A stretch of DNA of 38,833 nucleotides from Spirochaetales bacterium (GTDB lineage: Bacteria > Spirochaetota > Spirochaetia > Treponematales > Treponemataceae), in the NCBI GenBank assembly GCA_028725265.1, contig JAQYSN010000205.1:1-38833 (forward strand), written 5' to 3'. Below are positions 17,738-27,704 of the stretch, in pieces. The notes below the pieces were generated by a model. That model searched no databases, was not told the DNA's origin, and saw only the letters and a program-made list of their open reading frames with translations. A program made the position numbers and the translations under genes. How positions within the stretch are numbered: the stretch's first letter is position 1; every line of letters begins with the position of its first letter.

Positions 17738-18526
17738 ATGTCTGAAGAAACACTGATTAAATGCTCCAATCTCGAATGTAGATATGGAAATTATATCGCT
17801 GCATCAAACATAAATTTCCAACTTAACCGCGGAGACTATCTTTGCGTCGTCGGAGCAAATGGCTCTGGTAAATCAACTTTAGTAAAAACGCTGTTAGGTC
17901 TGCAGAAAAGCTATAGCGGCAAAATCGAAAAGGCAAAAAACTGCCGAATCGGATATCTACCGCAGCAAAAAGCCGTTCAAAAAGATTTTCCGGCAAGCGT
18001 TTTCGAAGTCGTTCTTTCAGGAAATCTTGCCAATAAAAAGTTCTTTTCGTTTTACACAAAGGCTGATAAAGAATTAGCCATGAACAACATCGAAAAACTC
18101 GGTATCCAGAGTTTTGTCAAAAAATCATTCCGCGAGCTTTCAGGCGGACAACAACAAAGAGTTCTCCTAGCCCGAGCTCTATGTGCCGCAAGCGATATGT
18201 TAGTAATGGACGAGCCTGTTACAGGTCTGGATCCAACAGTTACAGATGAACTTTACACCATCATCAGAAATTTGAATGCCGTAGATAAACTTACAATCAT
18301 CATGGTCAGCCATGACATTCATCGTGCGGTAAGCCAATCAAGCCTCATCCTCCACATGAATAAAGAACAACTCTTCTTTGGAACTTCCAAGGATTATATG
18401 AAAACAGAATATTACAAGCAGATGCAGAACGTGGAAACTTGCAGCACTCATTGCCAATGCGACTGTGACGAAACTTGCAAAGCAAGCCACATAATCATGA
18501 ATCATCATCACCATAAGAGCCAATAA
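17738..18526 (+). CDS. Zinc/manganese-type ABC transporter ATP-binding protein with Cys/His-rich tail
   Basis: The 262-residue ATPase belongs to the ZnuC/MntB-like group that powers metal import (MZT family). Walker A GANGSGKST is at 39-47, with the LPQQK Q-loop, the LSGGQQQRVLLARAL signature, LVMDEPVTGLDP and the H-loop VSHD. The last roughly 35 residues are unusual: a cluster CSTHCQCDCDETC followed by SHIIMNHHHHK, a probable metal-binding tail. The permease starts one base after its stop, so they form one operon, and the permease type supports a Zn, Mn or Fe role. No substrate-binding lipoprotein gene (ZnuA-like) is adjacent in this window. The ATG lacks a ribosome-binding site. Confidence 0.9.
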   Translation: MSEETLIKCSNLECRYGNYIAASNINFQLNRGDYLCVVGANGSGKSTLVKTLLGLQKSYSGKIEKAKNCRIGYLPQQKAVQKDFPASVFEVVLSGNLANKKFFSFYTKADKELAMNNIEKLGIQSFVKKSFRELSGGQQQRVLLARALCAASDMLVMDEPVTGLDPTVTDELYTIIRNLNAVDKLTIIMVSHDIHRAVSQSSLILHMNKEQLFFGTSKDYMKTEYYKQMQNVETCSTHCQCDCDETCKASHIIMNHHHHKSQ

Positions 18527-18527
18527 A

Positions 18528-19352
18528 ATGCAGTTTTTTTCAGAACTTTTTTCCTATTCATTTATAACTCGCGCCCTCATTGCAGGTAGCCTCATCGCAC
18601 TTTGCAGCGCCCTTCTTGGAATACCGCTCGTCCTAAAACGCTACTCAATGATTGGAGACGGATTAAGCCATGTCGGATTCGGCTCAATGGCAATAGCTTT
18701 GGCTTTAAACGCAAGCCCTCTTGTAATAGCAATTCCCGTTACGATTCTTGCCTCGTTTTTCCTTTTAAAAATCAGCTCAAATACCAAAATGAAAGGCGAT
18801 GCTTCAATAGCCGTAATTTCAACAAGCTCACTCGCCCTCGGTATTATGATAAGTTCCATGACATCCGGATTAAACACCGACGTAAACGCCTACCTCTTTG
18901 GTTCAATTCTTTCCATCGACAAAACCGATGTCATTACAAGCATCATTTTATCCGTAACCGTTATTGCCTTTTTCGCTGTATTTTATAATCAGATTTTTGC
19001 AGTTACCTTCGATGAAACCTTTTCTTCGACAAGCGGAACCAAAACGAATCTATTCAATGCACTGATTGCAATTTTCACTTCCCTTACAATCGTCATCGGA
19101 ATGAGATTGATGGGCGCAATGATGATTTCCAGCCTAATAATTTTCCCTGCACTAAGCAGCATGAGATTTTTCAAAAGTTTCAAAAGCGTAACGATTTCAA
19201 GCGTGTTAATCAGCGTAGTCTGTTTTTTTGCAGGAATAATGATGAGTTTTGCTTTTTCAAGTCCGGCTGGTGCCACAATCGTCATCAGTAACTTGATTGT
19301 CTTCATCGGATTTATCATCGCAGGCAAAATCCGAAACAAGATTGCATCGTAA
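18528..19352 (+). CDS. Zinc/manganese-type ABC transporter permease (ZnuB family)
   Basis: The 274-residue integral membrane protein has about eight or nine helices of the ABC-3 permease family. Recognisable landmarks are LLGIPLVLKRYSMIGDGLSHVGFGSMAIAL in the second and third helices (the D-x-L-SH motif) and the MRLMGAMMISSLIIFPALSS segment, the coupling region. It would form the membrane channel for the ATPase encoded one base upstream. The metal cannot be assigned from sequence; ZnuB, MntC and iron permeases share these motifs. It ends 23 bases before the convergent ECF gene, with no obvious terminator in between. Confidence 0.9.
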   Translation: MQFFSELFSYSFITRALIAGSLIALCSALLGIPLVLKRYSMIGDGLSHVGFGSMAIALALNASPLVIAIPVTILASFFLLKISSNTKMKGDASIAVISTSSLALGIMISSMTSGLNTDVNAYLFGSILSIDKTDVITSIILSVTVIAFFAVFYNQIFAVTFDETFSSTSGTKTNLFNALIAIFTSLTIVIGMRLMGAMMISSLIIFPALSSMRFFKSFKSVTISSVLISVVCFFAGIMMSFAFSSPAGATIVISNLIVFIGFIIAGKIRNKIAS

Positions 19353-19375: not shown

Positions 19376-21634
19376 TTATTTCATTCCTCGCGCTTCAAGA
19401 GCTTCGGCAATTATAGAACTTCTTCTGATAGTTTGGATCATCAGCGGCACAATAATCGGCAAAATAGCCTTCACCTTGTTGAAAAAACCTCTCGTACTTT
19501 TTATTCCGTCACGGATAATCTGGGTCTTTACGATGTGACTCAATTCCTCGGTCAAAAGCGGAATGAATCTCAAAATCAGCATAAAAAAAACAACAACATT
19601 AATGTGGAAATATTTTTTCATGCCATCAAGAATTTCGGTAATTTCTGTTGAATAGACAAAAACCGAAAGTGTCGTCATAGCACCAAAAAAGTGCAACATC
19701 ATCCTGATAAGCGAAAATAAATTTGCATCCGTAAACTTCAAAAATTTCCAGCTCCACCAGATAGTATCGCCTTCATTTACAGGAAACAACAAAACTTGCC
19801 ATATAAAGAAAAATAAAATCCATGGAATAATTTTAATCATCCTAAAAAAAAGCTTTTTAGGACTGAATTTGGCAAGGAGTGCATAAAGTGCTGATGCAAG
19901 ACAAAATCCAATCAATACAGGAATCTGAGGCAACATAGTATTTCCAATGAACAAAATCAAAAAAATAATCGTTTTTGCAAGAATGTTCATTTTATGAATT
20001 GGTGTGTTTTTTGGAGTAAACTCACCAAGACTCGTATTTCTAAGCCCAGAAAGAAGGTTCGCATGTTCTTTGTAGCGAAGATTTTCTGTTTCTCCCTGAA
20101 AATTAGGTACTTCACAAGGATTCGTATCTGAAATTATCTTTCCTCGTTCGATGTGAATGGTTCTATCTGCTGCAAGAGCATCTTCGCTGTGATGTGTCGA
20201 AAAAATTATAGTCTTATTATGCTCGTCTGCAAGTTTTTGAATCAAACTGAAAAACTGCTCACGACTTTTCGGATCAAGACTGCTCGTAGGTTCGTCAAAA
20301 AAAATTATGTCAGAATCCATTGCTATAATGCCAGCCAAAGCGAGTTTTCGTTTCTCACCGCCAGAAAGCTCAAGAATCGAGCGATCCTTAAATTCCGTGA
20401 ATGGCAAATTGCAGATATCCATTGAATCTTTGACTCGTTTTAGAAGCTCCTTTCCCTTAAGCCCCTGATTTTCAGGTCCGAACGCCACGTCATCAGCGGC
20501 AACCGGTTTAAAAAGCGCGCTTTCCGCATCTTGAAGTGCAAGCGTCGTTTTACCGCTACAAAAAACCTTGCCTGATGTAGGTGCTAAAAGCGAAGCTCCC
20601 AGTTCAAACAAAGTTGATTTTCCGCTGCCGCTTTTTCCAAGCAAGGCCGTTATCGTGCCTTTTCTGAAAGCAAGGCTCACGTTGTCCACGGCCGGTGCGG
20701 CTGTATTCTCCTCTTGCGATGTCCTATTTTTGTCGTTTGTTTTTTTTGCCTCATAATCATAAGTAATTCCGTCAAATGCCAACGAAATATCCGTAAGATT
20801 AGCTTTCTCTGAAAAATTCGTAGCACCGGCCGGGTTGCCAGCAGCAGACTCAGCACTAGATTGGCTGCATGAGTGCGTATCTGTTTTCAGCAAGGCAGCT
20901 GCTTTCTTCGCGCTTTTTTCGGCGCGCCGGTACACGTCTGGGTTTGTTACACCGAACAACCTTTCGAATTCTTCGCCATTTTTTTCGAAGCTTTCAAGCG
21001 TGTCGTCAAATATCTTTTTTCCTTTTTCCAAAATGACTACTCTATTTGCCCGGCGCGCCTCTTCGATGTCGTGCGTTATATGAATTATCGTCTTGCCGTC
21101 TTGATGCAACTTATCAACGACATCAAGAATGCTTTTTCTAGTTTCTGGATCAATCATTGAAACCGCTTCATCCAAAATCAGAATATCAGTTTCAAGAGCT
21201 AGAATTCCTGCCAAAGCCAGCTTTTGAGTCTGCCCAAGCGAAAGACTGTTCGTATTTGCCTTTATTTTTTCGGTCAAATCGACCGTTTTGAGCGACTCTA
21301 TTGTTCTACGCTCGATTTCATCTTCCGAAAGACGTAGAACTTGTGGTCCAAATGCCGTATCTTTTTCTACAATCGTTGCAATAATCTGATATTTTGGATT
21401 TTGCTGAACAAATCCTATCGGTTTTCCAGTCTGCTGAACTTCAATTAAACCTTCCTGAAGTGGCAAAAAACCCACCATCAGTTTTGAAAAAGTTGATTTT
21501 CCGCTGCCATTAGTTCCCAAAATCGCAATATAATCGCCTTTGTAAACATCGAGGCTTACATCTTTCAATGCAGGGACTTCAGCATTTTCATATGAGAAAG
21601 AAACATTTTTTACCGAAATAAGATTTTGCGGCAT
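19376..21634 (-). CDS. Fused ECF transporter energising module (EcfA-EcfA'-EcfT in one polypeptide)
   Basis: This 752-residue protein joins three usually separate subunits of a vitamin-type ECF importer. ATPase 1 (about 6-235) has Walker A GTNGSGKS, Q-loop VQQNP, a non-consensus signature LSLGQ and Walker B LILDEAVSMIDP. A Lys/Ala/Ser-rich linker of about 50 residues leads to ATPase 2 (about 288-510), with GKSGSGKS, LSGGEKRKLALAG and FFDEPTSSLDP. The EcfT membrane part (about 555-752) has around five helices and ends in EALEARGMK, the second coupling motif; the first coupling motif is degenerate (IIRDG). The frame is unbroken, so the fusion is real in this sequence. It starts directly after the aminotransferase stop (TAAATG), implying cotranscription with lrp and that gene. 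A candidate S component lies at 27066-27704. Confidence 0.93.
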   Translation of the reverse strand: MPQNLISVKNVSFSYENAEVPALKDVSLDVYKGDYIAILGTNGSGKSTFSKLMVGFLPLQEGLIEVQQTGKPIGFVQQNPKYQIIATIVEKDTAFGPQVLRLSEDEIERRTIESLKTVDLTEKIKANTNSLSLGQTQKLALAGILALETDILILDEAVSMIDPETRKSILDVVDKLHQDGKTIIHITHDIEEARRANRVVILEKGKKIFDDTLESFEKNGEEFERLFGVTNPDVYRRAEKSAKKAAALLKTDTHSCSQSSAESAAGNPAGATNFSEKANLTDISLAFDGITYDYEAKKTNDKNRTSQEENTAAPAVDNVSLAFRKGTITALLGKSGSGKSTLFELGASLLAPTSGKVFCSGKTTLALQDAESALFKPVAADDVAFGPENQGLKGKELLKRVKDSMDICNLPFTEFKDRSILELSGGEKRKLALAGIIAMDSDIIFFDEPTSSLDPKSREQFFSLIQKLADEHNKTIIFSTHHSEDALAADRTIHIERGKIISDTNPCEVPNFQGETENLRYKEHANLLSGLRNTSLGEFTPKNTPIHKMNILAKTIIFLILFIGNTMLPQIPVLIGFCLASALYALLAKFSPKKLFFRMIKIIPWILFFFIWQVLLFPVNEGDTIWWSWKFLKFTDANLFSLIRMMLHFFGAMTTLSVFVYSTEITEILDGMKKYFHINVVVFFMLILRFIPLLTEELSHIVKTQIIRDGIKSTRGFFNKVKAILPIIVPLMIQTIRRSSIIAEALEARGMK

Positions 21635-22804
21635 TTATTTTTTATGCTCCGCAACTAGCTGAGACAATCGCTCCATGGCAGTATTTATTTTTTTGATATC
21701 CGTCGCATAACAACAACGAACAAAGCCTTCTCCGCATTTTCCAAAACAAGTTCCCGGAACCACTGCAACGCTATGTTTTTGGATAGCTTCAGTCGCAAAC
21801 TCTTCTGAAGTAAGCCCCGTCGAACGAATATCAACGAACATGTAGAACGCTCCCTCAGGCTCAATGCACTTTAGTCCCATCTTTTCAAAAGCATCCTGCA
21901 TTATGTTTCGTCGTTGCTGATAGCTGATTCTCATTTTTTCAACTTCATTCCAAGCCATTTTCAAGCCTTCGGTCGCTGCATACTGGCTAAAAATCGGCGG
22001 ACAAATCGTGTTATACGCATGCAACTTACAGCACTGCTTTAAAAGCTCGTTTGGAGCTACAATATATCCTATTCGCCAACCTGTCATCGCAAAGGACTTT
22101 GAAAATCCGTTAAAAATAATCGTATAGTCCTTCATTCCATCAAACTTACCGATGGAAACATGCTTGTTCTGATCGTAAATCAACTCGCAATAAATTTCGT
22201 CGCTCAAACACCAAATTTCATGTTTCTTTACAACCTCGGCAATCTTTTCGAGCTCTGCAGGCGGAATAATTCGCCCAGTCGGATTGCTCGGAGAACAAAA
22301 CATCACAGCCTTTGTCTTTTCAGTTATCAATTTTTCAAGCGACTCTGCCGTAGGATAAAAATTCGTCGTGCTCGTATCAAGATGAACGATTTTAGCACCG
22401 CACAAATCTGCAAGAGGATCATAACTTACATAACAAGGCTCACAGATGATAAGTTCGTCCCCTGGATTCAAAATCGTACGCAAAACCAAATCCAAGCCTT
22501 CGCTTGCTCCAACAGTCGGCAAAATTTCTGTCTTGGCATCATAGTGCAAATCGTATTTTTCAAGATATTTGGAAATTTCTTCCCTAAGTTCAATCAAGCC
22601 CCAATTTGAAGTATAAGATGTGTGGCCTTTTTCAAGATGATAGAATGCCTCTTCGCGGATAACCCACGGAGTAGCAAAGTCTGGTTCACCAACACCCAAG
22701 GAGATGATGTCGTCATGACCGATGCAGAGTTCGAAAAATCTTCGGATTCCAGAAGGCTGAATTTCCATTATCTTTGAACTAAATCTATCTTTTCTATTAT
22801 TCAA
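21635..22804 (-). CDS. PLP-dependent aminotransferase, class I/II (fold type I)
   Basis: The 389-residue cytosolic enzyme matches the AspC/PatA-like aminotransferase group: LGVGEPDFATPW near the N-terminus, PTVGASEGLDL (phosphate-cup region), SNPTGRI with the substrate-contacting Asn, LSDEIYCELIY with the PLP-binding Asp, and NGFSKSFAMTGWRIGY whose Lys forms the internal aldimine. The C-terminal VRCCYAT contains the carboxylate-binding Arg. The amino-acid substrate is uncertain. The start is a TTG, preferred because AAGGGA lies eight bases upstream. The position between an Lrp/AsnC regulator and the ECF module suggests an operon that answers to amino-acid status. Confidence 0.9.
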   Translation of the reverse strand: MNNRKDRFSSKIMEIQPSGIRRFFELCIGHDDIISLGVGEPDFATPWVIREEAFYHLEKGHTSYTSNWGLIELREEISKYLEKYDLHYDAKTEILPTVGASEGLDLVLRTILNPGDELIICEPCYVSYDPLADLCGAKIVHLDTSTTNFYPTAESLEKLITEKTKAVMFCSPSNPTGRIIPPAELEKIAEVVKKHEIWCLSDEIYCELIYDQNKHVSIGKFDGMKDYTIIFNGFSKSFAMTGWRIGYIVAPNELLKQCCKLHAYNTICPPIFSQYAATEGLKMAWNEVEKMRISYQQRRNIMQDAFEKMGLKCIEPEGAFYMFVDIRSTGLTSEEFATEAIQKHSVAVVPGTCFGKCGEGFVRCCYATDIKKINTAMERLSQLVAEHKK

Positions 22805-27065: not shown

Positions 27066-27704
27066 ATGAAAACAAACAAACAAAATTTAACTTTCAAAAT
27101 TGCCGTTACAGCAAGTCTTAGTGCACTCATCATCATCATGGGTCTTACTCACATCGGTTTTATTCCATGGTTCTCTGGAGCCGCTATAACAATTATTCAA
27201 ATTCCAGTTTTTCTCGTCGCAATGCTTTGTGGTTGGCTTCCTGGCCTTATTTCAGGCATCATTTTTGGTGTGTTCAGCTTAATTGTAGCAGCAACAGCCC
27301 CTACTGGCGGACTTGATGCTTTCTTTGTAAATCCGTTGATTTCAGTTCTCCCTCGTGCCTTAATGGGTATCTGCTCGGGATTTATTTTCCTCGGTTTTTC
27401 TAAAATTCCAAAATTTCCTAAAGTCGTGAATTTCGCAATTACAGGATTTCTTGGTTCCTTCCTCAACACTATCTTCGTTCTTGGGGCTTTGTGGATTGCA
27501 AAAGCCATCGATTTCAAATTGTTGCTCACAGTTACAGTTTCAAATGGTCTTTTGGAGGCAGCCGCAAGTGCAATCATCTGTACAGCCGTTATGTCATTGA
27601 TAATGATTCCAAAACGAAAATCAAAGTTCGCAGATGAAAAATTTGCAGATGAAAAAACTGATGAAACTGATGTAGTTGAAGAAGATACAGAAAAACAAGA
27701 TTAA
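27066..27704 (+). CDS. ECF transporter S component
   Basis: The 212-residue membrane protein has six predicted helices. The pattern LSALIIIMGLTHIGFIPWFSG, PVFLVAMLCGWLPGLISGIIFGVFSL and NPLISVLPRALMGICSG belongs to the ECF_trnsprt substrate-capture family (pantothenate/folate-like branch; the ligand is not certain). The tail after residue 185 is charged and contains a KFADEKFADEK repeat. The S component needs an EcfAA'T module, and the fused one at 19376-21634 is the only candidate seen. A GAGGT site precedes the ATG. It diverges from the UPF0210 gene. No riboswitch was recognised in the short leader. Confidence 0.88.
   Translation: MKTNKQNLTFKIAVTASLSALIIIMGLTHIGFIPWFSGAAITIIQIPVFLVAMLCGWLPGLISGIIFGVFSLIVAATAPTGGLDAFFVNPLISVLPRALMGICSGFIFLGFSKIPKFPKVVNFAITGFLGSFLNTIFVLGALWIAKAIDFKLLLTVTVSNGLLEAAASAIICTAVMSLIMIPKRKSKFADEKFADEKTDETDVVEEDTEKQD

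Follow-up and report, generated by a model that had tools for sequence, protein, structure and literature searches.

ECF transporters have been studied as machines of three-plus-one subunits, and which subunits swap with which is an open issue. In the energising modules whose structures have been solved, separate A, A' and T subunits already assemble 1:1:1, and in the transport cycle hydrolysis of ATP resets the ATPase pair. The closest described systems are the group II EcfA-EcfA'-EcfT modules of Lactobacillus (PDB 4huq, 8bms and 6zg3), which consist of three separate chains. Their EcfT is built of five membrane helices plus three coupling helices (PMC4820897). When ATP is bound at both sites, the ATPases close, the coupling helices shift and the empty S protein is driven out (PMC10368641). 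Two departures from this plan are stated in PMC6828968. One is the fusion of the A1 and A2 ATPases in some ECF systems, for which Rodionov 2009 and Eitinger 2011 are cited; the T protein is separate there. The other is the group I protein BioN, a T protein with only four membrane helices. BioN is a chain of its own that acts together with BioM and BioY.

The window analysed here is a stretch of 38,833 nucleotides from a Spirochaetales bacterium (contig JAQYSN010000205.1). On its minus strand, positions 19376..21634 form one frame of 752 codons that starts with ATG, ends in a stop codon and contains no internal stop. Along the 752-residue chain, an ECF-type ATPase is followed by a second one and then by an EcfT/CbiQ domain, in agreement with the sequence-only reading, which had proposed that A, A' and T lie in this order in a single unbroken frame. 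Two ABC_tran stretches and a CbiQ domain (PF02361, residues 543-750) were found with Pfam, all above cut-off, and the NCBIfam model TIGR04520 (ECF_ATPase_1) also matched above cut-off, its best stretch covering residues 6-243. By sequence, the nearest PDB chains are those of EcfA1 for residues 1-218 and of EcfT for residues 541-751. Both arginines that end coupling helices in EcfT are present. Arg708 is invariant in 15/15 fusions and in all 35 rows of the T alignment, and Arg749 is invariant in the same 15 fusions and found in at least 90% of the 35 rows. The chain thus holds what makes up an ECF energising module: two EcfA-type ATPases, an EcfT/CbiQ domain, both coupling-helix arginines and the catalytic residues. 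It shares with the group II modules the two unlike ECF ATPases, the two arginines and, probably, a PanT-like S partner, and differs from them in being a single chain with a four-helix T. It resembles the ECF systems with fused A1-A2 in having two ATPase domains per chain, to which it adds T as a third domain. The features are listed in Table 1.

Table 1. Features of the fused module and of two genes discussed with it (positions in the window; motif residues taken from alignment columns).
Feature	Position	Strand	Details
ATPase 1 (EcfA-like)	20915..21634	-	residues 1-240; Pfam ABC_tran 23-158, TIGR04520 above cut-off
Motifs of ATPase 1			Walker A GTNGSGKS 40-47, Q78, LSLGQ 131-135, Walker B ILILDE 151-156, D-loop Asp162, H188 (alignment)
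ABC signature LSLGQ of ATPase 1	21230..21244	-	translation
Linker 1	20789..20914	-	residues 241-282; mostly low confidence in model (pLDDT <50 at residues 233-279); length differs among relatives
ATPase 2 (EcfA'-like)	20105..20788	-	residues 283-510; second ABC_tran stretch
Motifs of ATPase 2			Walker A GKSGSGKS 333-340, Q368, LSGGE 423-427, Walker B IIFFDE 443-448, D-loop Asp454, H481 (alignment)
ABC signature LSGGE of ATPase 2	20354..20368	-	translation
Linker 2	20009..20104	-	residues 511-542; pLDDT <50 at residues 510-552
EcfT/CbiQ domain	19379..20008	-	residues 543-752; TMH1-4 and coupling helices 1-3, no TMH5
Arg708	19511..19513	-	end of coupling helix 2 (X-R-X motif)
Arg749	19388..19390	-	end of coupling helix 3 (A-R-G)
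PanT-like S component, likely partner	27066..27704	+	212 aa; Pfam ECF_trnsprt above cut-off
PLP aminotransferase gene, conserved neighbour just upstream of fusion	21635..22804	-	stop codon touches the ATG of the fusion

To place the module among its relatives, the ATPase 1, ATPase 2 and T segments were aligned separately and then joined, and a tree of 83 rows was calculated by a quick method with SH-aLRT only. Left out were S1_L146, which is truncated by the end of its contig, repeated entries from one genome, unfused loci below L023 and all loci in which T is not preceded by exactly two ABC domains; in the split rows L023, L026 and L047, ATPase 1 is cut by the locus end. The window sits in a lineage of 43 rows that holds split, AA'-fused and AA'T-fused forms. 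A, A' and T are separate in three rows from the same phylum. A fused AA' with a separate T occurs in six rows of families f3 and f4, plus L073 from a Chloroflexi-titled record. The full AA'T fusion is found in five rows of family f5 and 28 rows of f1, the family of the window. The more distant relatives thus show the steps before full fusion: separate A, A' and T, then fused AA' beside T.

AA'T rows also occur outside this lineage, namely three rows of family f13 (L052-L054) and the Actinobacteria-titled L118 and L120. Since AA' or split rows lie between, the A-A'-T fusion seems to have more than one origin; on the tree, no fewer than five switches between fused and unfused states are needed. 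The f13 proteins represent a different A-A'-T fusion of 871-906 aa, which retains TMH5, has LSYGQ in ATPase 2 and is apparently independent of that in the window. L118 (Nesterenkonia-titled, 904 aa) and L120 (Actinomycetaceae-titled, 897 aa) came from a contig scan based on common ABC motifs; it gives at least two A-A'-T frames in Actinobacteria-titled records and is no census of other phyla.

The T domain is short at its C-terminus. It aligns to residues 11-228 of the 266 residues of EcfT and ends there. An AF2 model of residues 526-752, calculated with the alignment of 35 rows, has a mean pLDDT of 86.8 and consists of four membrane helices and three coupling helices, after which the chain ends; the five transmembrane helices of group II EcfT are not all present. 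The best structural match is 8bms_C, residues 3-228 of 263, with a Z-score of 14.5 and an r.m.s.d. of 3.5 over 217 aligned residues, and all nine Foldseek matches at E <= 0.001 are EcfT/CbiQ chains. The full-length AF2 model is poor over the T domain and is no guide to the docking of the ATPases on T within one chain. A split-off TMH5 was not convincingly found at 22 loci when the 240 nt after the stop codon were searched in three forward frames with a tail profile from 96 T proteins, which recovers 95 of these 96 seeds; the best E-values (0.05 to 0.2) were obtained in L058-L060, where the S gene begins.

In the tree, TMH5 is absent from 26 of the 38 fused rows (21/28 in f1 and 5/5 in f5) and from none of the 45 unfused rows, a distribution that takes only two changes. 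Outside the tree, some separate T proteins likewise stop shortly after coupling helix 3 (L122, L123, L131 and L132, with tails of 3-4 residues, and L142, with a tail of 15). The idea that loss of TMH5 only follows fusion was considered and dropped: no causal link is claimed, because there are only two changes on the tree and tail-less separate T proteins occur elsewhere. As a four-helix T is known from BioN, the short T of the window is a variant and not a first.

The most likely partner of the module, judged by homology and gene order, is the PanT-like S protein encoded at 27066..27704. No PF12822 match other than its gene was found in the genome, and the only PDB sequence matches of the protein are 4rfs_S (E 1.2e-10) and 6zg3_C (E 1.6e-9), both given as PanT structures in PMC7755397. 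Its first helix carries the AxxxA pattern (A16-S-L-S-A20, residues 16-20), the docking motif of S components according to PMC4820897. In the relatives, the gene immediately after the module, in the same orientation, encodes an S homologue at 6/6 loci with AA' plus T, 3/3 fully split loci and 3/5 fused loci of f5. In all 12 of these, the S gene is followed by coaX, for type III pantothenate kinase, recognised by similarity to the CoaX of the window's genome and to that of L158; the latter was confirmed with Pfam and NCBIfam, and some of the 12 coaX genes are cut by the locus end. The operon of module, PanT-like S and coaX is conserved in L023, L026, L047, L058-L060 and L153-L158. The arrangement is looser in the fused forms nearer to the window. 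In the sister clade, in which the module is fused and TMH5 kept, the S gene is divergent and 1.0-2.5 kb away in 6/7 loci, and in the window it is divergent and 5.4 kb away. In the other 16 of the 17 fused loci of the window's clade, no S gene was found within the fetched flank (about 1 to 5 kb; more flank was available for the window). That the S gene is not in the operon of the module in this clade counts against the PanT partnership.

Pantothenate is the best-supported candidate cargo. Pantoate ligase (pantothenate synthetase, PanC) was found in 0/39 genomes of the order, the 87.7% complete genome of the window included, in a search that was positive for 9 of 14 control genomes, and CoaX is encoded in the window's genome. 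We consider it probable that the frame encodes a one-polypeptide ECF energising module, that its main S partner is the PanT-like protein, and that it imports pantothenate into a cell seemingly unable to make it. With this main partner, the system would be an importer of vitamin B5.

By comparison with the described transporters, we infer the following cycle for this S partner and substrate. The two ABC ATPase domains of one chain would pair with each other, and the two coupling-helix arginines of the EcfT domain would be seated in the grooves of the ATPase pair. The long low-confidence linkers (about residues 233-279 and 510-552) would let the ATPases of one chain pair below their own T; pairing between chains is the alternative. 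Binding of ATP would close the ATPase pair and pry off the empty S component, and hydrolysis would reopen the pair for a loaded one. The imported pantothenate would then be taken by CoaX to start the synthesis of coenzyme A.

It is also quite possible, if not the reading that we favour, that the fused module is shared as in group II systems and serves BioY (biotin), a carrier of B6 or another vitamin and PanT, pantothenate being only one cargo. The module has left the S-coaX operon in the window's family, and BioY is encoded in the genome and may share the module. BioY may work alone. The aminotransferase gene touching the module encodes a PLP enzyme; L066-L069 and L159 have a homologue no more than 30 nt upstream of their module, and in L160 the distance is about 1 kb. 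A pyridoxal-kinase/ThiD-like gene flanks the module in 9/15 sister-clade genomes (L163, L164, L165, L166, L180, L181, L185, L186 and L197) and stands beside it at two loci of the window's clade (L071 and L013), the family assignment having been made for three of these genes. Such neighbours could point to a connection with B6 or to sharing of the module, and with both kinds of gene beside the module in the window's clade, other substrates are possible. On the other side, the single PF12822 S gene found in the genome is PanT-like, and no S component for B6 was identified. A search for PF09605 (Trep_Strep) gave no match, but gave none in the controls either. On the other flank of the fusion, window positions 17738-19352 (plus strand) encode what resembles, by eye, the ATPase and permease pair of a zinc/manganese ABC importer; this pair is convergent with the fusion and ends 23 nt away.

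The preferred reading, that of a pantothenate module in one chain, leaves the state of its two ATP sites to be considered. The sequence-only reading had pointed out LSLGQ instead of LSGGQ in ATPase 1, which is indeed what residues 131-135 read, and had taken it to imply one weakened site. The catalytic motifs were compared by alignment columns. In the window protein, the first Gly of this signature is the sole departure among the catalytic residues. The position is variable: the 21 rows of the window's clade read LS[LQPTA]GQ (L 15, Q 2, P 2, T 1, A 1), with the Ser, the second Gly and the Gln kept in 21/21. Three further loci of the clade have LSGGQ (L199 and L202) or LSSGQ (L200), and six AA'-fused relatives with a separate T have LSAGQ (four), LSVGQ (one) or LSGGQ (one). 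Both Walker A motifs, the Walker B Glu, the D-loop Asp, the Q-loops and the H-loop His are kept in all 21 rows, and the ATPase 2 signature is LSGGE in 19 of them. LSLGQ is poor evidence of a weak site because it amounts to one letter at a variable position, and the claim of weakening finds no support for the window protein.

Degeneration is found in the sister clade. All 15 distinct genomes of this clade (L163-L169, L180-L186 and L197) have one degenerate composite ATP site; of 30 loci added later, seven are repeats of L163-L169 and fifteen fall in the window's clade. In 15/15, ATPase 1 has lost its D-loop Asp and its signature differs from LSGGQ, the first Gly being the sole difference in L163, L167 and L168. 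ATPase 2, again in 15/15, has Asn, Ser, Thr or Gly in place of the H-loop His; in L166 and L167 its Walker B Glu has given way to Asn and Asp, respectively. At the opposite site, ATPase 1 retains Walker A, the Q-loop residue, the Walker B Glu and the H-loop residue, and ATPase 2 retains LSGGE and the D-loop Asp. In composite ABC sites, the Walker side of ATPase 2 pairs with the signature side of ATPase 1, and it is to this one site that the losses read from the alignment all map.

One degenerate site is known from the heterodimeric ABC proteins CFTR, TAP and TM287/288. Their pattern is matched by the sister clade and not by the window, which keeps two intact-looking sites, and they are not ECF importers. 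No account of a degenerate ECF site was found in the portions of the open literature that were searched. The most surprising element, an ECF motor with one degenerate site, belongs to the sister clade rather than to the window. The first reading had therefore singled out the right site, which is degenerate in the sister clade, although not weakened in the window protein. A functional weakness of that site through LSLGQ is unlikely: its full decay in the sister clade suggests that it may be under weaker constraint, but its remaining residues are intact in 21/21 rows, and AA'-fused relatives whose sites are otherwise intact show variation at the first Gly as well.

That the frame encodes an ABC exporter, or a soluble two-domain ATPase with an unrelated membrane tail, is very improbable; Foldseek, given the whole model, does rank two-ATPase proteins such as OppD/DppD and ABCB1 highest, but the membrane part matches EcfT/CbiQ structures and carries the two coupling arginines, and the PDB chains closest in sequence to ATPase 1 are those of EcfA1.

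The spread of the fusion bears on whether it is real. In the two other genomes of the genus, the module is a single frame of 799 aa (G001) or 714 aa (G002). A fused-module model built from seven fused proteins matches 150 of the 245 genomes of the family at E <= 1e-60, and 82/128 among good assemblies. Most of the rows listed in this census consist of a single frame, about 690-920 aa long. The shorter frames, of about 320-490 aa, match the model only in part, and some of them lie at the end of a contig. As 95/245 genomes are without a match at this threshold, the fused module is common in the family and not universal. The search for proteins covering both ATPase and CbiQ/EcfT domains, which the first reading had called for, hence returns single-frame fusions in close relatives and in many other genera of the family, a recurrence well in excess of chance, and not the separate genes in close relatives that would have spoken for an artefact. 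A sequencing or assembly error joining three genes, for which nothing was found to speak except that the genome is an 87.7% complete assembly of 257 contigs, is ruled out for practical purposes, because the same A-A'-T frame recurs in 21 rows of the window's clade and in many other genera. The one-frame A-A'-T is a real and conserved ECF energising module in one chain.

No description of an A-A'-T fusion was found in the open literature as far as it was covered by the search, which does not establish its absence in print. With the fused A-A' already in print, the chain in the window is an unusual variant of a known machine and not a new one. The proposal that fusion would fix a 1:1:1 stoichiometry is a fair inference, but this stoichiometry is already usual for separate subunits. 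What the fusion fixes is rather the choice of partners among A, A' and T, in a genome that holds a second, separate ECF set as well, with CbiQ and an ATPase (L152) on contig C210 and CbiM on C68.

A natural one-chain motor has its A, A' and T pairing fixed, and either ATP site could be mutated alone without mixed assemblies. It would also be a compact construct for structural work. As a tentative history, which we regard as somewhat unlikely in its entirety, the ECF motor for vitamin B5 may have become a single chain and then been pared down, the branch of the window dropping TMH5 and the sister branch letting one ATP site decay, with fusion enabling the asymmetry. If this is true and both branches still transport, the ECF motor would need neither TMH5 nor two hydrolysing sites. 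The natural variants of this family let one ask whether TMH5 and two-site hydrolysis are needed for the toppling of the S component.
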